Assembly (NCBI RefSeq): GCF_002240355.1
Contig: NZ_CP016353.1
Span: 1,600,501-1,664,500 of the forward strand
DNA: 64,000 nucleotides
Origin: Prauserella marina
Lineage (GTDB): Bacteria; Actinomycetota; Actinomycetes; Mycobacteriales; Pseudonocardiaceae
Direction: 5' to 3'
Below, one piece after another: positions 50,206 through 59,909 of the stretch. The first letter of the stretch is position 1, and each line of letters opens with the position of its first letter. The position numbers were made by a program, and so were the translations under genes. The notes beneath the pieces were generated by a model. That model searched no databases. It saw only the letters and a list, made by a program, of their open reading frames with translations, and was not told the DNA's origin.

Positions 50206-51159
50206 CTACCCCGCTTCGCGCGCCAGCAGTGCTCTGGCCAGGGAGCTGTCGCACACGAGGACGTCGAGCGCGCGGGTGCGCAGCGCGCCGAGCACACCGC
50301 CCGCCTTTTCCGGTCCGGCGGCGACCCCGGCCACCGTGGGGATGCTCGCGAGGTCGGCCAGCGAGACACCGAGCACCCTGTCGTCGGTGGGACCGGTCAG
50401 TGGCGTGCCGTCCGCGTCGAAGAAGCGCGCGCAGATGTCACCGACCGGCTTCGCCGCCTCGAACCGTCCTTTTTCCTCGTGGCTCAGGTTCATCGCCCTG
50501 ACGAGCGCCGCCGAGGAACCCTGCCCGGCGCTGCCGATACCGACGATGGCGATCTGCGCTCGCCGTGCCGCGTCGAGTGCTTTTTGGATGGTGGGTTCGG
50601 CGAGCAGAACGTCCCTGCCCGCCTTCGAGGTCAGCAGCGCGGGTGCGTGCAGCCGGAGATATTGGCCCCCGACCCTGCCGGCGAGGTCGCGGACGAGTTC
50701 CTCTCCGCTGATCGCCGAGTCCACAGCGGACAGTCCGCCGACGAGTGGAAGCACCTCGACGTCGAGCCCGCCCTCGTCGGGGATGTGCTGCACGACCGAT
50801 TGCAGCCCGTGCCCCCACGAGACGCCGATCTGTTGTCCTGGCTGGAGATTGTCGAGCAGCCAACGGGCGCCGAGGTCACCGACCCTCGACAGTGGACGGT
50901 CGTGGCTGTGGGTCTCGGCGACCCTGCTGTCCTTGAGCCCGAAGCGGCTGGTGAGCTGGTTTTCCAGGTCCATGTCGCGACCGCTTGGGTCGTTGATCTG
51001 GATCCGGACGATGCCCCTTTCCCTTGCCGCCGTGAGCATCCTCGACACACTGGACCTGCTGACCTGCAACGTGGTCGCGATCTCGTTCTGGGAGCGCCCT
51101 TCCTCGTAGTAGAGGCGGGCGGCTTTCACCAGCAACTGCTGGTCACGAGGTGGCGGCAT
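50206..51159 (-). CDS. SorC/DeoR-type sugar-binding transcriptional regulator
   Basis: A 317-residue regulator. N-terminal helix-turn-helix (YYEEGRSQNEIATTLQVSRS then SVSRMLTAARERGIVRI) is joined to a SorC-type sugar-phosphate domain (GVSWGHGLQSVVQHIP, AIVGIGSAGQGSSAALV, GDICARFFDADGTPL). SorC proteins sense phosphorylated sugars or polyols and usually control the adjacent PTS genes. It lies 4 bases downstream of the HPr gene, and the pair diverges from the glucitol-type PTS. Palindromes at 51509 and 54315-54409 are its candidate operators. Confidence 0.9.
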   Translation of the reverse strand: MPPPRDQQLLVKAARLYYEEGRSQNEIATTLQVSRSSVSRMLTAARERGIVRIQINDPSGRDMDLENQLTSRFGLKDSRVAETHSHDRPLSRVGDLGARWLLDNLQPGQQIGVSWGHGLQSVVQHIPDEGGLDVEVLPLVGGLSAVDSAISGEELVRDLAGRVGGQYLRLHAPALLTSKAGRDVLLAEPTIQKALDAARRAQIAIVGIGSAGQGSSAALVRAMNLSHEEKGRFEAAKPVGDICARFFDADGTPLTGPTDDRVLGVSLADLASIPTVAGVAAGPEKAGGVLGALRTRALDVLVCDSSLARALLAREAG

Positions 51160-51163
51160 GTCC

Positions 51164-51430
51164 TCACGCGTCCAGGTCGCGCACCAGTAGCTCGGACAGT
51201 TCGGTGAGCGCGCCGTCTGCTCCCTCGCCGTCGGTGCGGAGAATGACCTCCTCGCCGTGGCCGATCGCCAGGCTCAGCACGGAAAGCATGCTGCGCGCGT
51301 CCACGAGTTCGGTGCCGGGGCGGCCGATCGCCACGGTGCCGGGATGTTTGGCGGCCGCCTTGACGAACATGCTGGCTGGTCGCGCGTGCAGGCCGACGGA
51401 CGAGGCGATCTTGACTCTGATCTCCGGCAT
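51164..51430 (-). CDS. HPr-like phosphocarrier protein
   Basis: An 88-residue HPr. The phosphorylated His15 lies in VGLHARPASMF, and Ser47 is in DARSMLSVLSLA at the regulatory-Ser position. ATG at 51430 with AAGGAG 6 bases before it. It passes phosphate from Enzyme I to Enzyme IIA. Its place inside a polyol PTS locus suggests a dedicated HPr for this system; Enzyme I is not encoded in the window. Confidence 0.92.
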   Translation of the reverse strand: MPEIRVKIASSVGLHARPASMFVKAAAKHPGTVAIGRPGTELVDARSMLSVLSLAIGHGEEVILRTDGEGADGALTELSELLVRDLDA

Positions 51431-51508
51431 GCGGGCTCCTTCGCGGTTGGGGCTTGTCGCCGATTGCACGGCATGTTACACACATCACTGGCAAACGTGA
51501 AGAACGTC

Positions 51509-51522
51509 AGCACATACGTGCA
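51509..51522. promoter_or_regulatory. Candidate SorC operator upstream of the PTS genes
   Basis: AGCACATACGTGCA matches the perfect palindrome TGCACATATGTGCA at 54396 in 12 of 14 positions. It lies in the 128-bp divergent gap between the HPr gene and the IIC gene, 37 bases before the IIC start. Confidence 0.55.
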
Positions 51523-51558
51523 AATGCCGGATCCGGGGGGCCGAGAAGGAGGCCAGCA

Positions 51559-52209
51559 ATGCAAGTGCTTGCTGTAATGGCGCAGCAGCAGCCGGCACAG
51601 CCAGAAGAGGAGACGAGCGGCGGAGTGCTCGGTGTCTTCGAATGGCTGGGTACACATTTCATCGGGCTTTTCGATGAAGCGGGGCAGCAGTTCGTCGGGC
51701 TGGTGACCGGGATTCTTCCCACGCTCGTCGTGTTGCTCACCTTCATGTACGCGCTCACCACGTTCATCGGTGAGCAGCGGGTGACCCGAGCCGTGCAGTG
51801 GTCGGCGCGATGGTGGATCACCAGGTACACGGTCATGCCGGTACTCGCGGTCCTGATGCTCACCAACCCGATGTGTTACTCGTTCGGCAGGTTCCTTCCG
51901 GAACGCTACAAGCCCGCTTTCTACGACTCGGCCGTGTCGTTCGTGCATCCGGTGACCACGTTCTTCCCCTATGCCAACGCGGGCGAGCTGTTCGTGTGGC
52001 TCGGTATCGCCAACGGCATCACGCAGCTCGGCGAGTCGACGGTTCCGGTGGCGTTGCGGTACTTCCTCGTCGGCATTCTGGTGATCTTCATCAGGGGCAT
52101 CGTCACGGAAAAGCTCACCGCGTTCATGATCAAGCGAACGGGCCGCACCGAGGTGTTCGCCGATTTCGACCGTGAGTTCGAGGAAGCGAAGGCGGGTGCG
52201 CGCGCATGA
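51559..52209 (+). CDS. PTS glucitol/sorbitol-type IIC component (SrlA-like)
   Basis: A 216-residue membrane protein with several helices. NPMCYSFGRFLPERYKPAFYDS and FPYANAGELFVWLGIANGIT resemble SrlA, half of the split membrane channel of the glucitol PTS. ATG at 51559 with AGAAGGAGG 8 bases before it. First gene of the plus-strand operon; its stop overlaps the IIB start by 4 bp. The substrate need not be sorbitol, because the matching dehydrogenase is missing. Confidence 0.88.
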   Translation: MQVLAVMAQQQPAQPEEETSGGVLGVFEWLGTHFIGLFDEAGQQFVGLVTGILPTLVVLLTFMYALTTFIGEQRVTRAVQWSARWWITRYTVMPVLAVLMLTNPMCYSFGRFLPERYKPAFYDSAVSFVHPVTTFFPYANAGELFVWLGIANGITQLGESTVPVALRYFLVGILVIFIRGIVTEKLTAFMIKRTGRTEVFADFDREFEEAKAGARA

Positions 52210-53255
52210 GCGAGACGGAGACGCACGTGTCCGGTGCCGTGTTCGTGCGGCCGGGGCAGGGTGGCTGGGGCAAGGGACTGCTGCTGCGCGCCGACGGCAA
52301 GCGCGACAAGGTGCTTTCGGTGACCGGCGGCGGCATTCATCCCGTCGCGGCACGGATCGCGGAGCTGACCGGAGCGGAGGCGGTCGACGGGTTCATCACG
52401 ACGGTGCCCGACGACGAGGTGGTCGCGGCGGTCATCAACTGTGGTGGCACGGCGCGGATCGGCGTGTACCCGCGCAAGGGAATCCCGACCGTCGACGTGT
52501 ACGCGGGAGCGCCGGGAGGACCGCTCGCGAAGTTCATCACCGAGGAGCTTTTCGTATCGGCCGTGGGGGTCAGCGACGTCAACCCGTCCACTGGGGACAG
52601 TGCTGCGGCCGGAACCGGGGAAACGGAGGAAAAGCCGCCGGCCGTCCCTCCGCGCTCGGAGCGGCCCTCTGGCGCCGACGTCGCCGCGTCCGTCGCGGGC
52701 ACCGGCAAGTTCGGGACCGCGTTCAACGCGGTCACCGGTGTGTTCGTCAAGTTCGGTTCGGCCGTGGGGTCTTTCGTCAACACGATGCTTGCCGCCGGAA
52801 GGCAGACGATCGACCTCACGCTCAAGACGATCCTGCCGTTCATGGCGTACGTGAGCCTGCTGCTCGGCATCGTGACCTACACCGGGGTCGCGGAGTGGAT
52901 GGGCCGTGTGCTGAGCCCGATCGCGAGCAATCCCTTCGGGCTCATCGGCATCAGTCTCGTGGTCGCGTTGCCGTTCCTGTCCCCGATTCTGGGGCCCGGC
53001 GCCGCGATCGCGCAGGTCATCGGAACGTTGATGGGCAGCCAGATCGCTATCGGCGCGCTGCCGGTGCAGTACGCGCTGCCCACGTTGTTCGCCATCAACG
53101 GCCAGGTCGGTTGTGACTTCGTTCCGGTGGGGCTCGCCCTTGGCGAGGCCAAACCGGCGACGGTCGCCGTCGGCACGCCCGCGGTGCTGATCAGCAGGAT
53201 GTTCACGGCGCCACTTGCGGTCGTGATCGCATGGGTCGCAAGCTTCGGGCTCTAG
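52206..53255 (+). CDS. PTS glucitol/sorbitol-type IIB(C) component (SrlE-like)
   Basis: A 349-residue protein. The N-terminal IIB domain carries the phosphorylated Cys79 in VINCGGTARIGVYPRKG. A Pro/Ser-rich hinge (about residues 125-160) leads to a membrane domain that completes the channel (LPFMAYVSLLLGIVTYTGV, LSPILGPGAAIAQVIGTLM). Start at 52206 overlaps the IIC stop by 4 bp. With IIC and IIA it forms a full transporter that phosphorylates its polyol on entry. Confidence 0.9.
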   Translation: MSETETHVSGAVFVRPGQGGWGKGLLLRADGKRDKVLSVTGGGIHPVAARIAELTGAEAVDGFITTVPDDEVVAAVINCGGTARIGVYPRKGIPTVDVYAGAPGGPLAKFITEELFVSAVGVSDVNPSTGDSAAAGTGETEEKPPAVPPRSERPSGADVAASVAGTGKFGTAFNAVTGVFVKFGSAVGSFVNTMLAAGRQTIDLTLKTILPFMAYVSLLLGIVTYTGVAEWMGRVLSPIASNPFGLIGISLVVALPFLSPILGPGAAIAQVIGTLMGSQIAIGALPVQYALPTLFAINGQVGCDFVPVGLALGEAKPATVAVGTPAVLISRMFTAPLAVVIAWVASFGL

Positions 53256-53264
53256 GAGGAAGAA

Positions 53265-53639
53265 ATGAGCGTGTATTACGAGAGCACCGTGCTGCGGGCC
53301 GGTGAAGAGGCGGGGGACATGGTGGAGGGCGGGGTCGTGATTCTCTATGCCGACCCGATCCCCGCCGCGCTGGAGAGCGTGAGTGTCGTGCACGGCCCCG
53401 CGAAGGGGCCGGAGCGGGAGATCAGGGCCGGTGACGTCTTCTCGATCGGGGAGCAGCGGGTCGAGCTGTTCGCGGTGGGGGAGCGGGCGCACGAGAATCT
53501 GCGCACGCTCGGGCACATCGTGGTCTACCTGAATCCGGAGGAGGGGACCTCGCTGTTGCCGGGCGCCGTGCACGGGAAGGGAACCGTGTCGATCCCCTCG
53601 GCGGGCGCGGCGCTGTCGCTGAGTGGTGGCGCGCCGTGA
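53265..53639 (+). CDS. PTS glucitol/sorbitol-type IIA component (SrlB-like)
   Basis: A 124-residue soluble protein. The beta-rich domain starts YESTVLRAGEEAGDMVEGG, and His in SVVHGPAKG is a likely phosphorylation site. DVFSIGEQRVELFAVGERAHENL is typical of the glucitol IIA family. ATG at 53265, with AGGAGGA about 8 bases upstream. It takes phosphate from HPr and gives it to Cys79 of the IIB domain. Confidence 0.9.
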   Translation: MSVYYESTVLRAGEEAGDMVEGGVVILYADPIPAALESVSVVHGPAKGPEREIRAGDVFSIGEQRVELFAVGERAHENLRTLGHIVVYLNPEEGTSLLPGAVHGKGTVSIPSAGAALSLSGGAP

Positions 53640-54049
53640 GCTGGCAGGCGATCGTCACGCTGCTCGGTGTGTTCGTGGTGGCCGGAATCCTCAGCTATCG
53701 CCAGCATCTCGGTTACCAGCGTGCGGTGAACGAGCTGGCCACCGACGAGAACCGCAGCGGAGTGCTGTTGGTGAGCGGCAGGTCGAAGGGCAGGTTGCGG
53801 GGCGCGATCGTGCTGCTGGTCATCGACCGCCGCCGGGGCGAGGTGATCAGGGCGAGCGCCATGGAGGGCAGCTCGGTGTTCGCGTCGTTCAAGGAGCGCG
53901 AGGACCTGACCGGCCCCGTCGAGGGAGCCGAGGAGCGGGCTGGTTCGAAGGCGCTCGCCAAGGCCGTCGGCGACGCGATGCGGATGGCGAGCAGGTTGAA
54001 CGCGGGCACGCTGCGCTCGGCGAAGGCGGGCGAGCGACAGCAGGCTTAG
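53636..54049 (+). CDS. GutM-like operon protein
   Basis: A 137-residue protein with an N-terminal membrane segment (IVTLLGVFVVAGILS) and a GutM-type core (GVLLVSGRSKGRLRGAIVLL, GSSVFASFKEREDL). GutM was described as an activator of the E. coli glucitol operon and is regularly linked to SrlA/E/B. GTG at 53636 overlaps the IIA stop. Its TAG stop at 54047-54049 is formed partly by the first two bases of the MITE-like element at 54048. Confidence 0.82.
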   Translation: MSWQAIVTLLGVFVVAGILSYRQHLGYQRAVNELATDENRSGVLLVSGRSKGRLRGAIVLLVIDRRRGEVIRASAMEGSSVFASFKEREDLTGPVEGAEERAGSKALAKAVGDAMRMASRLNAGTLRSAKAGERQQA

Positions 54050-54218
54050 GTCGTGTCTGATGAACCTCTGCCGTGCGAGCGGGGATCAGCGTGGTTCCTC
54101 GCAAGGCGGTGTAGGACCGGAATGCCCTCGTACCGGGTCGTACTCGGGCTTTCCGACAACGCGGCGAGGGGACACGCTGGCCCCGCGCGGCAGGCTACGG
54201 GTTCGTCGGACACGACCT
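54048..54218. mobile_element. MITE-like element, copy 2
   Basis: A 171-bp element with terminal repeats AGGTCGTGTCTGA (54048-54060) and TCGGACACGACCT (54206-54218), which pair over 12 of 13 positions, the exception being a G-U wobble. Relative to copy 1 the change of A to G in one arm is matched by T to C in the other. It lies directly between the gutM-like gene and the promoter of the DRL-like gene, splitting the cluster into two transcription units. Confidence 0.75.
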
Positions 54219-54314
54219 AGCGAACACCTGCCCGGACACAAGGCGTCCGGTGTGGAGCTTTTTGGCTCCGCGCCGGGCGCCTTTGTGCGTCGGGCATGCC
54301 GCGACCTGCGGATT

Positions 54315-54328
54315 TGCACACATGTGCA
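54315..54328. promoter_or_regulatory. Candidate SorC operator, distal
   Basis: TGCACACATGTGCA has 6-bp arms TGCACA/TGTGCA. It is followed by GGCCGGAG, as the site at 54396 is followed by GACCGGAG, so the two are direct repeats of about 22 bp. Confidence 0.6.
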
Positions 54329-54383
54329 GGCCGGAGAGTCTTGTGTGCGGTTGATTCCCCGTGCTACCAAAGAAAGCACGACG

Positions 54384-54409
54384 GTGCACATAATGTGCAC
54401 ATATGTGCA
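54384..54409. promoter_or_regulatory. Candidate SorC operator, overlapping palindromes
   Basis: Two overlapping palindromes: GTGCACATAATGTGCAC (54384-54400, perfect 8-bp arms) and TGCACATATGTGCA (54396-54409, perfect). They end 17 bases before the DRL-like start and next to its ribosome site, a position suited to repression. Confidence 0.65.
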
Positions 54410-54426
54410 GACCGGAGGGTTTCGGG

Positions 54427-55734
54427 ATGAGTTATGTCGATCGGCTGCGAGCTCGCGAGCGGGAGCTCGGGCGTCCGGTCAGGGTGGGTCTCGTCGGAGC
54501 GGGCCAGATGGGTCTCGGCTTCGTCGTGCAGGCGAGCCGCATCGAGGGCATGGAGGTCGCGGCCATCGCCGACATCGCGCCGGAGCGGGGAAGGGCCGCG
54601 TTCGCCGAGGCAGGCAGGTCCGACGTCGTCGATACCGGCACCCGCGCGGAGTTGGCCGCGGCCATCGAGCGCGGCGGCGTCGTCGTCACCGACGAGGCCA
54701 TGCTGCTGACCGGACTGCCCCTCGACGTGCTGGTCGACGCCAGCGGCGTGCCCGAGGTGGGCGCGAAGCTCGCGTTCGCGGGCCTGCTGGCCGGCAAGGA
54801 CATCGCCATGCTCAACGTCGAGTGCGACGTGACCGTCGGGCTGCTGCTTTCGAGCCTGGCCACCCGCCTCGGCAGGGTCTACACGGTGTGCAGGGGCGAT
54901 GAGCCCGTCGAGTGCAAGGCGCTGGTCGACTACGTCCGCGACATCGGCTTCGAGGTGGTGTGCGCGGGTAAGGGCAAGAACAACCCGCTCGACCCGGCCG
55001 CGACGCCCGCCTCCGTCGCCGCGACAGCCGAAGCGAAGGGCATGAACCCGCACATGCTCGCGAGCTTCGTCGACGGGTCCAAGACGATGATCGAGATGGC
55101 CGCGCTCGCCAACGGCGCCGGGCTCGCGGTCGCCACCCGTGGCATGACGGGGCCGCACTGCACGGTGGAGGCGTTGTCCGACACGTTCCGGCCTGCCGAG
55201 GACGGCGGGGTGTTGCCGCGCGCGGGCGTCGTCGACTACTGCACCGGCCCCGTCGCGCCGGGGGTGTTCGTCATCGGCCGCACCGACCATCCGGCCGTCG
55301 CCGCAGAGATGGCGTACCTGGGCATGGGCAAGGGGCCGTACTACACGTTCTACCGGCCCTACCATCTCGCGAGCGTCGAGGCGCCGCTTTCGGTGGCCGA
55401 GGCGGTACTCGACCGTACCCCGAGCCTCGCGCCGACAGCGTGGAACGCCGAGGTGCTGGCCGTGGCCAAGCGGGACCTGCGGGAGGGCGAGGCGCTCGAC
55501 GGCATCGGTGGCGACACCGTCTACGGCATCACCGACAGCGCGTCGGCGGCGGCAGCGGGCGGGCACGTCCCGCTCGGTCTCGCGAGCGGGGCGAAGGTGC
55601 TCAGGGACGTGGCGGCGGGGACCGTGCTGACGAGCGCCGACGTCGCCGTCGACGAGACGACCACCATCGCGACCTTGCGCAGGCTCCAGGACCGCCTGGT
55701 GGAGGGTGAGGAGGTGACCGGAGCGTGGATCTGA
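54427..55734 (+). CDS. SAF-domain NAD(P) oxidoreductase, DXR-like (DRL/DXR-II) candidate
   Basis: A 435-residue protein. Residues 17-135 form a Rossmann domain ([11 protein letters not shown] at 19-29; [14 protein letters not shown]). A central domain has [26 protein letters not shown] (179-190) and [17 protein letters not shown] (214-230), then [15 protein letters not shown]-terminal SAF domain follows (about 345-425). This architecture and these motifs match the Brucella abortus DRL (DXR-II), which interconverts DXP and MEP, as I remember it; such proteins are often mislabelled FlgA-like. ATG at 54427 with GGAGGG 8 bases before. Overlaps E1 alpha by 10 bp. Substrate remains inferred. Confidence 0.75.
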
Positions 55735-56702
55735 CCGGAAACGCTTCCCTCGCAAGGGAAACGCTGCGGACGATGTGGACGATCAGGCGGTTCGAGGAGG
55801 CGGTGGACGACCTGTTCGCCCGCGGTCTCATGCACGGCACGATGCACCTGTCGATCGGGCAGGAGGCGGTACCGGCCGGTGCCTGCCTCGCGCTCGCCGA
55901 CGGTGACTACATCACCTCGACGCACAGGGGACACGGGCACTGCATCGCCAAGGGCGCTCGCCTGGACGCGATGATGGCCGAACTGCTCGCCAAGGAAACC
56001 GGGTATTGCCGGGGTCGCGGTGGTTCCATGCACATCGCCGACGTGGCGACGGGCAACCTCGGCGCCAACGGCATCGTCGCGGGAGGCGTCCCCATCGCCT
56101 CAGGCGCGGGGCTCGCGGTGAAACTGCGTGGCGGACAGCAGGTCGTGCTCAGCTTCTTCGGCGACGGCGCCGTCAACGAAGGCGCGTGGCACGAGGGCGT
56201 CAACCTCGCCGCGATCTGGGACCTTCCCGTGGTGTTCGTCTGCGAGAACAACCACTACGGCATGTCGATGTCGGCGAAAAGGGCGGCCAAGGTCGACCGG
56301 CTCGGGGACAGGGCCGCGGCGTACGGGATCCCGGGGGTGACCGTCGACGGCAACGATCCGCAGGAGGTGTTCGACGCCGTGTCGGCCGCCGTCGCCCGAG
56401 CGAGGGCGGGGGACGGGCCTTCACTGGTGGAGGCCATGACCTACCGCTGGAAGGGACATTCCAAGAGCGACAAGAACCTCTACCGCACGAGAGAGGAGAT
56501 CGAGAGCTGGCGCGAGCGCGACCCGATCGTGCGGTTCGAACGCGCGGCGATCACGGCGGGGGCACTGTCCGAAGAGGACGCCGCGGAGTGCAGGGACGAA
56601 GCGAGGGACCGGGTGCGCGCCGCGATCAGGACGGCCAACGCGGCTCCCGACGCCAGCGCCGCCTCGCTGACCGACGCCGTGTACGCGGGGAGCCAATCAT
56701 GA
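55725..56702 (+). CDS. TPP-dependent dehydrogenase E1 alpha, acetoin-dehydrogenase type
   Basis: A 325-residue subunit that binds thiamine diphosphate: [20 protein letters not shown] (144-163) to [11 protein letters not shown]. It has [13 protein letters not shown] and GRGGSMHI around the active site. The short N-terminus and [10 protein letters not shown] pattern suit the AcoA branch, which cleaves acyloins, rather than branched-chain oxoacid enzymes. GTG at 55725 overlaps the DRL-like stop, and the stop overlaps E1 beta by 4 bp. In this locus a phosphorylated acyloin such as DXP would be a logical substrate. Confidence 0.87.
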
Positions 56703-57697
56703 CCACGACCGAATCGCGCACGCTCACCTATGCCGAGGCGGTGAGGGAAGCGCTCAGCCAGGCCATGGAAGCCGACGAGCGGGTGTTCCTGCTCGGCGAA
56801 GACGTCGGAACCTACGGCGGCGCGTTCGGTGTCACCGGCGACCTCGTGCACCGCTTCGGCGAGGAACGGGTCCGCGACACCCCGATCAGCGAACTCGGCA
56901 TCGTCGGAGCCGCCGTAGGCGCCGCGCTGGCGGGGATGCGGCCCATCGTCGAGATCCAGTTCTCCGACTTCACCGCGCAGGCCATGGACCAGATCGTCAA
57001 CCAGGCGGCCAAGATCCATTTCATGCTCGGTGGCGCGGCGACGGTGCCCATGGTGCTCAGGGCGCCTGGCGGTTCGGGAACGGGCGCCGCCGCGCAGCAC
57101 TCGCAGAGCCTCGAAGCATGGTTCGCGCACGTGCCAGGGCTCAAGGTCGTCATGCCGGCCACGGCAGCCGACGCCAAAGGGCTGCTGCTTGCCGCGATCG
57201 ACGATCCGAACCCGGTGATCGTGCTGGAACACAAGCTGCTCTACAAGCAAAGCGGGGTCGTTCCCCAATCCCCGGCGAGGGTTCGGCTCGGCGAGACGGC
57301 GGTGCGCCGCGACGGCACCGATCTGACCATCGTGGCAACCGGGGTCATGGTGTCCAGAGCGCTCGAAGCCGCCGAACAACTCGCGGCGACCGGGATCGAA
57401 GCCGCCGTGCTCGACCCGAGGACGCTGCGCCCGCTCGACTCGAAGACCATTGTGGACAGTGTGACCGCGACGGGAAGGGCGCTGCTCGTCCAGGAGGCGC
57501 CCAAGACGGGCGGCTTCATGGCCGAGGTCTCGGCCGCCATCGTCGAGTCACCGGCGTTCGGGCACCTCACGGCGCCGGTCACCAGGCTGTGCGGGCTGGA
57601 CGTACCCATTCCCTATGCCCCGCAACTGGAAAAGGCCGCCGTGCCACAGACCGAGGACATCGTGAAGGCCGCGACCGGGCTGGTGAACCAGTGGTAG
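56699..57697 (+). CDS. Alpha-ketoacid/acetoin-type dehydrogenase E1 beta
   Basis: A 332-residue partner of E1 alpha. [21 protein letters not shown] carries the Glu that activates [28 protein letters not shown] and [17 protein letters not shown] are conserved E1 beta segments. Start ATG at 56699 overlaps the E1 alpha stop (ATGA), and the stop overlaps the E2 start. Together the subunits form the heterotetrameric E1. Confidence 0.9.
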
Positions 57698-58806
57698 CGA
57701 AGGAAGTCGCGCTGGTGATGCCCAAGATGTCCATGACGATGACCGAGGGTGTCTTCGTCGCGTGGCACAAGGCGGCCGGTGACCGGATCCGGCAGGGCGA
57801 CGTCGTGTGCGAGGTCACCACGGACAAGGTCGACATGGAGGTCGAGGCGACGGTCGACGGCGTGCTCGCGCGGCTGGTCGCGCGGCCGGAGGACGTCATC
57901 GCCGTCGGCGAGCCCATCGCCTACGTCGAATCCGAGGCCGACGACCTGCTGGAAGGACTCTTCGACGCACCGGAGGCTTCGGGGCCAGTGCCGGAGGAAC
58001 CGCGGGCACCCGAACCCCAGCCGGTGCGTGCCGCCGAAAAGCGCGGCGTCGCGGCCGTTCCCGCCGCCAGACGCCTCGCCGCCGAGCGCGGCGTCGATCT
58101 GGCCGCGCTCACCCCGACCGGGCCGTGGGGGACGATCAGGGTCGCCGACCTGCCTGCCGGTCGGCTGGCGAAACCGGCCCCAGCCCGGGGAAGGGCGGCG
58201 GTCGCCAGGCGCATGACGCCAAGCGCGCTGGTGCCGCAATTCGTGTTGTACCGCGACGTCGACCTCGCGGGGGCCGAGCGCGCGAGGAACGGGGCGAGCT
58301 GGACGGCGGTGTTCGTCCACGTGCTCGCCGCCGCGCTGCGCGCGCATCCCGCGTTCAACGCGAGCTGGTCCGGCGACACGCTGGTCCGGCACGAGGGGGT
58401 CGCGGTCGCGCTGGCCGTCGACACCCCGAGGGGCCTGCTCGCTCCCGTGCTCACCGACCCCGACCTGTGCGGGCTGGACGAACTCGGCTCGCGGGTCGCC
58501 GACGTCGTGTCGAGGGCGAAGGCGGGAAAGCTCGGGCTTGCCGAACTGTCGGCACCCGCCACGACGACGGTGTCCAATCTGGGCGGCCTCGGGGTGGGCG
58601 CGTTCCAGGCACTGCTCACGCCACCGCAGGCGAGCGCGCTCGCGATGGGCGCCGTCGAACGCAAGGTGGTTCCGGTACCCGATGGCGTCGGGGTGCGCCT
58701 GCGCTGCTCGCTGGGGCTGACCGTCGACCACAGGGTCGCCGACGGCGCCGACGGCGCGCGGCTGCTTTCCACGGTCCAGGAGCTGCTCGACGGCGGACTC
58801 GTATGA
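57691..58806 (+). CDS. Dihydrolipoamide acyltransferase E2, single lipoyl domain
   Basis: A 371-residue E2. Lipoyl domain 1-80 with Lys46 in [16 protein letters not shown]; short Pro/Glu linker; peripheral-subunit-binding domain ([18 protein letters not shown]); acyltransferase core ending [16 protein letters not shown] with the catalytic His. It would pass the acyl group released by E1 to CoA. GTG at 57691 overlaps the E1 beta stop. No E3 follows, so lpdA (40567) or another E3 must act. Lipoylation would depend on LipA/LipB, also in this window. Confidence 0.9.
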
Positions 58807-58813
58807 TTCCGGG

Positions 58814-59548
58814 GTGGCACGATGGACACGGCGGCGCCGACCCTACGCGGCGGGAGTCGTGCTGGCCAGCGGCGCGGGCACCAGGGTGGGCGCCGCCATG
58901 AACAAGGTCTACCTTCCGCTCGCGGGCAGGCGCCTGGTGTCCTGGTCTCTGGGGGCCTTCGCGCGCGTGCGCGAGGTCGGCGTGCTGGTGCTCGTCGCGA
59001 GGCCGCAGGATTCGGAACTCGTCGAGTGGGTGCTCGACAGGGAGGTCGACGCCAAGGTCGAGGTCGTCCTCGGTGGCGAGACGCGACAGGAATCGGAATT
59101 GCGGGCGCTGCGGCACCTCGCGAGCCGGATCGATCGCGGCACCGTCGACACGATCCTGCTGCACGACGCGGCCCGGCCGCTGGTGAGCCCCGAGCTGATC
59201 GCCGGTGTCCTGCACTCGGCGAGAGCCCACGGTGGAGCCGTTCCCGGGCTGCCAGCCGACGACATCGCCGAGATCGGCGACGAAGGAGCGGCGCTCACCG
59301 GCGTTCGACCTGGCATGATCATCAGAGCGCAGACACCGCAGGGTTTTCGCGCCGCGCCGTTGCTCTCGGCCTACGAACGGGCCGCGAGAGAGGAGTTCCT
59401 GGGTACCGACACCGCCTCGTGCATGGAACGGTTCGCCGAACTGCCCGTGCGCTGGGTGCGCGGGGAACAGCAGAACTTCAAGATCACGTATCCGCACGAC
59501 CTCGTGATCGCGGAGCAGGTGCTGGCCGCGGCTGAGTACCAGAGGTGA
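58814..59548 (+). CDS. IspD-like cytidylyltransferase
   Basis: A 244-residue nucleotidyltransferase of the IspD/TarI family. CTP-binding loop GVVLASGAGTRVGAAMNK with Lys31; then LLHDAARPLVSPE, IRAQTPQGFRAAPL, GTDTASCMERF and a C-terminal NFKITYPHDLVIAEQ in place of the IspD signature NIKVTTPEDL. It should join CMP to a polyol phosphate, MEP being the family's classic substrate and ribitol 5-phosphate (TarI) the alternative. It starts 7 bases after E2. No ispF follows, so it is probably a paralogue of the housekeeping IspD. Confidence 0.8.
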   Translation: MARWTRRRRPYAAGVVLASGAGTRVGAAMNKVYLPLAGRRLVSWSLGAFARVREVGVLVLVARPQDSELVEWVLDREVDAKVEVVLGGETRQESELRALRHLASRIDRGTVDTILLHDAARPLVSPELIAGVLHSARAHGGAVPGLPADDIAEIGDEGAALTGVRPGMIIRAQTPQGFRAAPLLSAYERAAREEFLGTDTASCMERFAELPVRWVRGEQQNFKITYPHDLVIAEQVLAAAEYQR

Positions 59549-59552
59549 GGAC

Positions 59553-59909
59553 GTGATGGCCATGGGAACCGTTGAGCACGCCACGCTGTCGTGCCACCAC
59601 TGCGGCGAGGAAACCGACCACGAGCTGGCCTACGCCGGCCGGTTGCTCGTCGTCACGACCTGCACCCGCTGTGGCAACAGCATCGAGCGCGATGTGCGCC
59701 GCCGTTATGTCACCGACCTGCGGCAGCGGATGACGAGCAAGCCGGGCAGGATGCTGCGCCGCTTCCGGAGGCACCCCGTCGGCTTCGCCAGCTCACTTCC
59801 CCGCACGACCGTGCTCAAGCCGTGGGAGCTGCTGGAGGAGGTCCGGCTCGTGTGGGGAGCCGCGGCCGACACGCGCAAGGGCGAGAAGCGCGAGCGAGAC
59901 CAGCACTGA
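59553..59909 (+). CDS. Small zinc-ribbon protein
   Basis: A 118-residue protein with two CxxC knuckles near the N-terminus (LSCHHCGEE and TTCTRCGNS, about 25 residues apart), which form a four-Cys zinc ribbon, then a basic, helical C-terminus. It begins 4 bases after the IspD-like gene, with GTG at 59553 and in-frame ATGs at 59556 and 59562. Last gene of the accessory operon, before a strong terminator. No known function; it could be a regulator or an unrelated passenger. Confidence 0.7.
   Translation: MMAMGTVEHATLSCHHCGEETDHELAYAGRLLVVTTCTRCGNSIERDVRRRYVTDLRQRMTSKPGRMLRRFRRHPVGFASSLPRTTVLKPWELLEEVRLVWGAAADTRKGEKRERDQH

Follow-up and report, generated by a model that had tools for sequence, protein, structure and literature searches.

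Positions 50206..59909 of a 64,000-nt stretch of the Prauserella marina genome (the window; assembly GCF_002240355.1, contig NZ_CP016353.1, positions 1,600,501-1,664,500, forward strand) probably hold a regulated operon for the catabolism of 2-C-methyl-D-erythritol or of a closely similar methyl-branched tetritol. In the pathway we propose, a glucitol-type phosphotransferase system (PTS) with its own HPr would convert methylerythritol and phosphoenolpyruvate into 2-C-methyl-D-erythritol 4-phosphate (MEP) and pyruvate. A DRL, running in the reverse of its direction in isoprenoid synthesis, would then turn MEP and NADP into 1-deoxy-D-xylulose 5-phosphate (DXP) and NADPH, and an E1/E2 complex, using an E3 from elsewhere, would split DXP with CoA and NAD into acetyl-CoA, glyceraldehyde 3-phosphate and NADH, thereby pulling the DRL step. 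A SorC regulator would control the transcription units through operators of the TGCACATATGTGCA type, and a second IspD may divert part of the MEP into isoprenoid synthesis. The substrate, the direction, the substrate of E1, the supply of E3 and the role of IspD are all points we infer from sequence.

This scheme has its metabolites and the DRL and IspD families in common with the MEP pathway (DXS, DXR, IspD), but the first two steps are proposed to be reversed, and acetyl-CoA would be released where DXS uses pyruvate. A first reading of the window made from the sequence only (hereafter the sequence-only reading) held that no described pathway of this kind was known. We likewise found no description of methylerythritol catabolism among the matches listed in the open-licence literature; the parts are known, in an arrangement without a description among those matches. 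Methylerythritol is made by plants and, as 2-methyltetrol, by isoprene oxidation. If our reading is correct, the cluster would be a biological sink for it, DXR-II would have a physiological function in hosts that possess DXR-I as well, a natural E1 complex would act on DXP, and it would be misleading to name genes of this kind after a sorbitol PTS or pyruvate dehydrogenase.

Protein families were called with Pfam and NCBIfam models, and all named genes of the cluster are intact open reading frames (ORFs). Their positions in the window, with strand in brackets, are:

50206..51159 (-), SorC/DeoR-type sugar-binding transcriptional regulator (PF04198 Sugar-bind, 208 bits)
51164..51430 (-), HPr, PTS phosphocarrier (PF00381, 78 bits)
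51559..52209 (+), PTS glucitol-type IIC, start codon picked by eye (PF03608 EII-GUT, 250 bits; NF049923, 219 bits, cut-off 150)
52206..53255 (+), PTS glucitol-type IIB (PF03612/PF07663 EIIBC-GUT_N/_C, 185/136 bits; NF049924, 406 bits, cut-off 400)
53265..53639 (+), PTS glucitol-type IIA (PF03829 PTSIIA_gutA, 75 bits)
53636..54049 (+), GutM (PF06923, 50 bits)
54427..55734 (+), alternative start 54403, DRL, filed as a DXR-II-type DXP reductoisomerase (PF21135, 219 bits; SAF, 31 bits; 3upy, 3e-102)
55725..56702 (+), E1 alpha of the DRL-linked group, proposed DXP-cleaving dehydrogenase (PF00676 E1_dh, 296 bits; tree; H37/T39/N111)
56699..57697 (+), E1 beta of the same complex (PF02779/PF02780 Transket_pyr/_C, 161/134 bits)
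57691..58806 (+), E2 with lipoyl, E3-binding and acyltransferase domains (PF00364, PF02817, PF00198)
58814..59548 (+), second IspD, MEP cytidylyltransferase-like (TIGR00453, 170 bits; PF01128, 153.8 bits)
59553..59909 (+), small protein with paired cysteines (CxxC), with tblastn matches beside IspD in many loci

These calls agree with the gene content given in the sequence-only reading: a glucitol-type PTS (IIC, IIB, IIA and GutM) with its own HPr and SorC, a DRL-like oxidoreductase (DRL_cat domain), and E1 alpha, E1 beta, E2 and an IspD-like protein downstream of it. That reading had also reported the lack of a sorbitol-6-phosphate dehydrogenase, and neither this enzyme nor an E3 was found among the cluster ORFs scanned with the two libraries. 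The small CxxC protein had no NCBIfam match. The host genome (6.99 Mb, 99.96% complete) has one DRL, one DXR-I and one other clear IspD, while its single PTS enzyme I lies far from the window. As DXR-I and another IspD are present elsewhere, the window's DRL and IspD are extra for the isoprenoid synthesis of this host.

The window DRL aligns with the solved Brucella protein 3upy/3upl over residues 17-433 (3e-102), and its nearest named relatives are from Prauserella, Qaidamihabitans and Amycolatopsis. The start at 54427 is more likely than that at 54403, because many relatives align from residue 8-9 and a palindrome covers 54396-54409. In the sections of PMC3847144 we drew on, the family is divided into DXR-II, which makes MEP, and DLO1/DLO2, and the four DLOs tested all failed DXR complementation. 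T229 is absolutely conserved in DXR-II and K191, K193 and R320 are functional, with K191, K193 and T229 as substrate residues and R320 as a dimer residue (same sections). With the numbering mapped by eye onto an alignment with the Brucella structure, the window DRL has all four residues and is one of 92 DRL rows, out of 99 aligned, that do. The other seven (L100, L102-L107) are DLO-like and lack the full residue set. L102 comes from Cupriavidus necator N-1, a strain that those sections place under DLO2, and L101 from Sinorhizobium fredii NGR234, which they place under DXR-II. Position 250 of the window DRL is T where DXR-II has H; the H250 rule allows four exceptions and is hence no strict criterion (PMC3847144, same sections). 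A tree made by a quick method from 68 of the 99 rows, after removal of near-copies, splits off L100, L102, L105, L106 and L107 with a support of 99; the DLO-like L103 and L104 sit on a long branch within its other side, which is unresolved, has 63 rows and includes the window DRL. The residues thus argue against a DLO, although the tree alone does not settle the matter, given the placement of L103 and L104, and we file the window DRL as DXR-II-type with one residue exception. It resembles the Brucella enzyme in its near full-length alignment and the four conserved residues, but differs in its T250, in sitting in a PTS-E1-E2 cluster, in a host that also has DXR-I, and in the oxidative direction in which we propose it works.

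We collected 80 loci by similarity to the window DRL and counted neighbours within 10 kb. Across 24 patterns of order and content, E1 alpha and beta accompany DRL at 57 of these loci, Gut IIB at 58, both at 55, a SorC homologue at 64 and IspD at 47. The host's 6.99 Mb contain six clear E1-alpha loci, giving a chance of about 1.7% that one falls within 10 kb of a random gene; the DRL-E1 linkage therefore exceeds chance. The co-occurrence across genomes that the sequence-only reading had suggested surveying is thus observed for the Gut PTS and E1 and, at 47/80 loci, for IspD. Since the 80 loci had been picked by similarity, the host's phylum served as a second sample, in which 51 of 396 genomes (host counted) match the window DRL at 1e-60. 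Among the 40 of 52 matches outside the window whose surroundings were examined, E1 genes occur at 19, accompanied by Gut IIB at 17, two have IspD without E1 or PTS, and 19, all of f27, a family of small actinobacterial genomes, are without E1, Gut IIB and IspD, five of them on contigs below 8 kb, too short for a missing gene to mean much. The two samples overlap somewhat: at least L187, L188 and L196 among the 40 are loci already counted in the first set as L064, L072 and L085. Closer to the host, 7 of 79 relatives match DRL at 1e-60, one at 40% identity, and DRL is a patchy, accessory gene among them. As controls, four annotated DLO-like loci (L100, L103, L106, L107) had neither a PTS nor an E1.

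The E1 genes also set themselves apart. Set against a sample spread over 60 of the 631 plasmid records, the window E1 alpha was 61-64% identical to those of DRL-bearing plasmids, 52% to that of an Enterococcus acetoin operon, 51% and 43% to acetoin-named proteins, 42-44% to pdhA-named ones and near 30% to the branched-chain type. We built a tree by a quick method from 58 of 85 rows, excluding near-copies; a single operon in it was of clear acetoin type. The 43 DRL-linked E1 alphas all cluster with the E1 of a C. difficile plasmid (L093) in a 44-row group, whose SH-aLRT value of 92 is below the tool's mark of 95. This group spans Actinomycetota, Alphaproteobacteria, Priestia and Aerophobetes, and leaves outside it the Enterococcus acetoin-operon E1 (L094), the pdhA-named and branched-chain E1s and five host paralogues. 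None of the DLO-like loci L100 and L102-L107 yielded an E1-alpha row. Pyruvate dehydrogenase was rejected as an identity, as these E1s make their own group and accompany DRL. The label 'acetoin-type' in the sequence-only reading is not borne out either: the libraries favour pyruvate-dehydrogenase names, and the tree groups the DRL-linked E1s without the Enterococcus acetoin-operon E1. The cluster does share E1 alpha, E1 beta and E2 with an acetoin dehydrogenase operon, and the Enterococcus E1 is among the nearest outsiders, but the window E1 belongs to a separate tree group and is linked to DRL and polyol uptake. On sequence grounds, the E1/E2 pair forms a separate group that may work like acetoin dehydrogenase.

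Residue patterns point the same way. DRL-linked E1 alphas have H37 and T39 in all 67 filled rows each, while other E1s have P (6/13) and F (9/15) at these positions; H-G-T recurs in 18 of 19 further E1 rows, the remaining row having R-G-T, whereas the Enterococcus and Thermus E1s have P-G-F. N111 is found in 68/68 DRL-linked rows against M in 7 of 14 others. However, family f33 E1s read GMLGANG (10/10 rows) where the group of the window E1 reads GNLGANG, and N111 was dropped as a general mark of DRL-linked E1s. The more polar residues would suit a substrate more polar than acetoin. In the part of PMC3424233 we used, a mutant pyruvate dehydrogenase E1 led to about 20-fold higher DXP in E. coli cells without DXS and DXR, indicating that an E1 can, once mutated, handle the DXP bond. 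At one locus (L205:10263-12557), E1 alpha and E1 beta are seemingly fused in a single 765-residue ORF adjoining DRL.

The cluster carries three operator-like palindromes:

51509..51522 (+), AGCACATACGTGCA, upstream of PTS IIC, 2 mismatches to TGCACATATGTGCA
54315..54328 (+), TGCACACATGTGCA, upstream of DRL, 1 mismatch to TGCACATATGTGCA
54396..54409 (+), TGCACATATGTGCA, upstream of DRL, exact

With up to 3 mismatches allowed, these are the only sites in the window, where 0.46 are expected, and all lie within the two intergenic regions of the cluster; three sites were reached in 1 of 100 shuffles. When at most 2 mismatches are allowed, 82 sites occur in the 80 loci (1.47 Mb), 79 of which stand before IIC, DRL, E1 alpha or SorC (from 300 bases before to 30 after the estimated start of the gene), stretches that make up 5.8% of bases; the pattern was derived from the window, and close relatives among the loci are not independent. 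Most small actinobacterial genomes have a site before E1 alpha only, and at L030 and L065 DRL and a separate E1 alpha are each preceded by one. That a shared motif stands before PTS, DRL or E1 genes from different families suggests a single regulon, and we infer that SorC binds the TGCACATATGTGCA-type sites.

Like the glucitol/sorbitol operon (srl/gut), the window has IIC, IIB, IIA and GutM, but it has SorC, its own HPr and a DRL in place of sorbitol-6-phosphate dehydrogenase. A sorbitol operon was rejected, no such dehydrogenase being among the scanned ORFs. According to the title of Testa et al. 2004, the sorbitol PTS of Salmonella transports methylerythritol. Elsewhere the uptake system is exchanged: transporter and kinase replace the PTS, with DRL-E1-E2 kept, in Priestia (MFS transporter, FGGY kinase, DRL, E1, E2, E3 and SorC) and in Sinorhizobium and Agrobacterium (ABC transporter, sugar kinase, SorC, DRL, E1, E2 and E3, with lipoyl synthase also in Agrobacterium). 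Rhizobium, Pseudoroseomonas and Terrarubrum have the Gut PTS with its own enzyme I (ptsP), DRL, E1 and E2. A second PTS adjoins the DRL-E1 cluster in three loci, L199:10591-12543 (EIIC-GAT type and EIIA-2), L096:1-1883 and L091:13809-16007, perhaps for a second substrate.

Several observations weigh against a methylerythritol catabolic operon. DXR favours MEP formation, so the step from MEP to DXP would need the pull of E1. A search by term for DXR reversibility returned nothing in PMC4149570, PMC2788227 and PMC8791446. The best-scoring models and PDB chains for E1 alpha and beta are named for pyruvate dehydrogenase. An operator-like site stands before DRL at only 27 of 80 loci, before IIC at 21/56, E1 alpha at 14/60 and SorC at 4/64; many of the 80 show none. 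IspD is near only 47 of the 80 DRLs. The text of PMC3994034 has methylerythritol phosphorylated by an ATP-dependent kinase, yet cites the PTS paper. The gene set is also incomplete in places: Listeria innocua and Ligilactobacillus have SorC, PTS and DRL without E1; Aminobacter has DRL-E1-E2 with no PTS, kinase or SorC in view; Aerophobetes has an FGGY kinase, DRL and E1 alpha/beta with no E2 found; one Chloroflexi locus (L070:7196-20516) and one planctomycete locus (L074:1010-11969) have an ABC transporter, an FGGY kinase, DRL and a fucose-isomerase-like gene with no linked E1; and C. difficile plasmid NZ_CP149737 (L093:6983-11924) has SorC, E1 alpha/beta, E2 and E3 with no adjacent DRL. In this last plasmid, the E1-E2-E3 set, of the DRL-linked E1 kind, adjoins an MFS transporter and glycosidases. 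On a Ligilactobacillus salivarius plasmid (L099:8001-15572), DRL and the Gut PTS are followed by fsa and transketolase where others have E1. Glycolaldehyde and hydroxyacetone have been joined to 1-deoxyxylulose with fructose-6-phosphate aldolase, according to the portion of PMC8791446 we consulted, and on this basis our guess is that this aldolase might split DXP in Ligilactobacillus, a possible fermentative variant.

Another polyol, for instance a different branched tetritol, a branched pentitol or some unknown deoxy-polyol, could be degraded by the same logic: DRL would make an acyloin phosphate, which the E1 complex would split to a different acyl-CoA. Only the families of the enzymes are known, and the T at position 250 of DRL, the change from GNLGANG in the group of the window E1 to GMLGANG in family f33 (10/10 rows) and the second PTS beside some clusters would all fit such a substrate. 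We nevertheless consider it rather unlikely: the DXR-II residues are kept, an IspD lies within the cluster, the sorbitol PTS is reported as a methylerythritol transporter (Testa et al. 2004, title), and a hydroxymethyl-branched polyol would presumably give a pentulose phosphate needing no E1.

The distribution of DXR-I and IspH bears on whether DRL serves biosynthesis or catabolism. We combined DXR-I searches of 24 and 34 genomes, dropping G206 and G309 because their contigs coincide with those of L064 and L072. With E1 beside DRL, DXR-I was found in 20 of 31 genomes, as a weak partial match in two (G287, G120) and not in nine; without E1 beside DRL, it was found in 2 of 25, weakly in one (G169) and not in 22. 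Sixteen of these 22 belong to family f27 and many are metagenome-assembled genomes (MAGs), making this an association of few lineages. All 16 f27 genomes tested, each with a lone DRL, gave no DXR-I match, and all ten tested for IspH have it, one as a fragment. The two f27 loci scanned (L206, L212) have DRL beside a prenyl synthase and Idi2, with IspE also in L212 and hopanoid genes in L206. With isoprenoid neighbours, IspH and no DXR-I match, the f27 DRL is very likely the DXR of these genomes. By contrast, G217 and G185, from one genus and 96% and 99% complete, carry the Gut PTS, DRL, SorC, E1 and E2 and gave no match for DXR-I or IspH, making it unlikely that their DRL serves isoprenoid synthesis. 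In Chloroflexi genomes G020 and G023, too, DRL is present and DXR-I and IspH were not found. The DRL family thus appears to have both roles, the PTS-E1 arrangement going with the catabolic one. The chain put forward in the sequence-only reading (PTS to MEP, DRL to DXP, cleavage by E1/E2) is supported by the conserved gene set and the exchange of PTS for a transporter and kinase, and would also fit the operator-like sites, the DRL-linked E1 group and the occurrence of the cluster in genomes without a DXR-I or IspH match.

Six small actinobacterial MAGs (G010-G015, completeness unstated) have DRL, IspD and IspH, and DXR-I was not found in them; the IspD next to DRL is their only strong IspD match (with one in-frame TGA in G014). 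In some MAGs a single DRL may work in biosynthesis as well as in catabolism, since three (L042, L045, L054) also carry the PTS and E1. It seems to us an evenly balanced question whether DXR-II belongs originally to catabolism, in a methylerythritol degradation pathway that is widespread and moves horizontally, and was recruited for isoprenoids in lineages without DXR-I. Such an origin would account both for the scattered occurrence of DXR-II and for its presence alongside DXR-I; a 2026 review (PMC13001223), in the part we cite, finds that the distribution of DXR lacks a defining pattern, apart from overrepresentation in certain pathogens.

It could also be supposed that isoprenoid synthesis is supplied through DRL and the second IspD, with imported methylerythritol or E1-made DXP as the source. 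The six actinobacterial MAGs, the f27 genomes with their two isoprenoid-linked loci and an IspD-IspF-like ORF upstream of the PTS in Salinibacterium all speak for such a supply. As the main role in this host it was rejected, since DXR-I and another IspD are present, and we regard it as improbable overall: the lipoyl-domain E2, together with E3 and lipoyl synthase in Agrobacterium, points to oxidative CoA-linked cleavage, and G217 and G185 carry the cluster with no DXR-I or IspH match. That ordinary sorbitol and acetoin or pyruvate genes are neighbours by accident, as the library names (sorbitol PTS, pyruvate dehydrogenase) might imply, is very improbable given a set conserved across 24 patterns, a recurring operator-like site, the DRL-linked E1 group and the lack of sorbitol-6-phosphate dehydrogenase among the scanned ORFs.

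The sequence-only reading held that the gene set makes sense chemically, but its pathway gave the second IspD no job. The window IspD scores 170.3 bits with TIGR00453, just below the cut-off of 181.3, and 153.8 bits with PF01128 (cut-off 27), where the host's other clear IspD reaches only 127.8. It has P in place of the substrate Arg that precedes QTPQ, which we take to be R157 of E. coli IspD; an Arg lies five residues later in 12 of 15 aligned IspD rows from DRL loci, the window's counted. The DRL-linked IspDs are likely true MEP cytidylyltransferases despite the lost R157, because they are the sole strong IspD match in MAGs G010-G015, which have IspH. In Salinibacterium (L023:5198-8021), a CarD-like ORF and the IspD-IspF-like ORF, recognised by eye and in its IspD part also by search, lie directly upstream of the PTS-DRL-E1 cluster.

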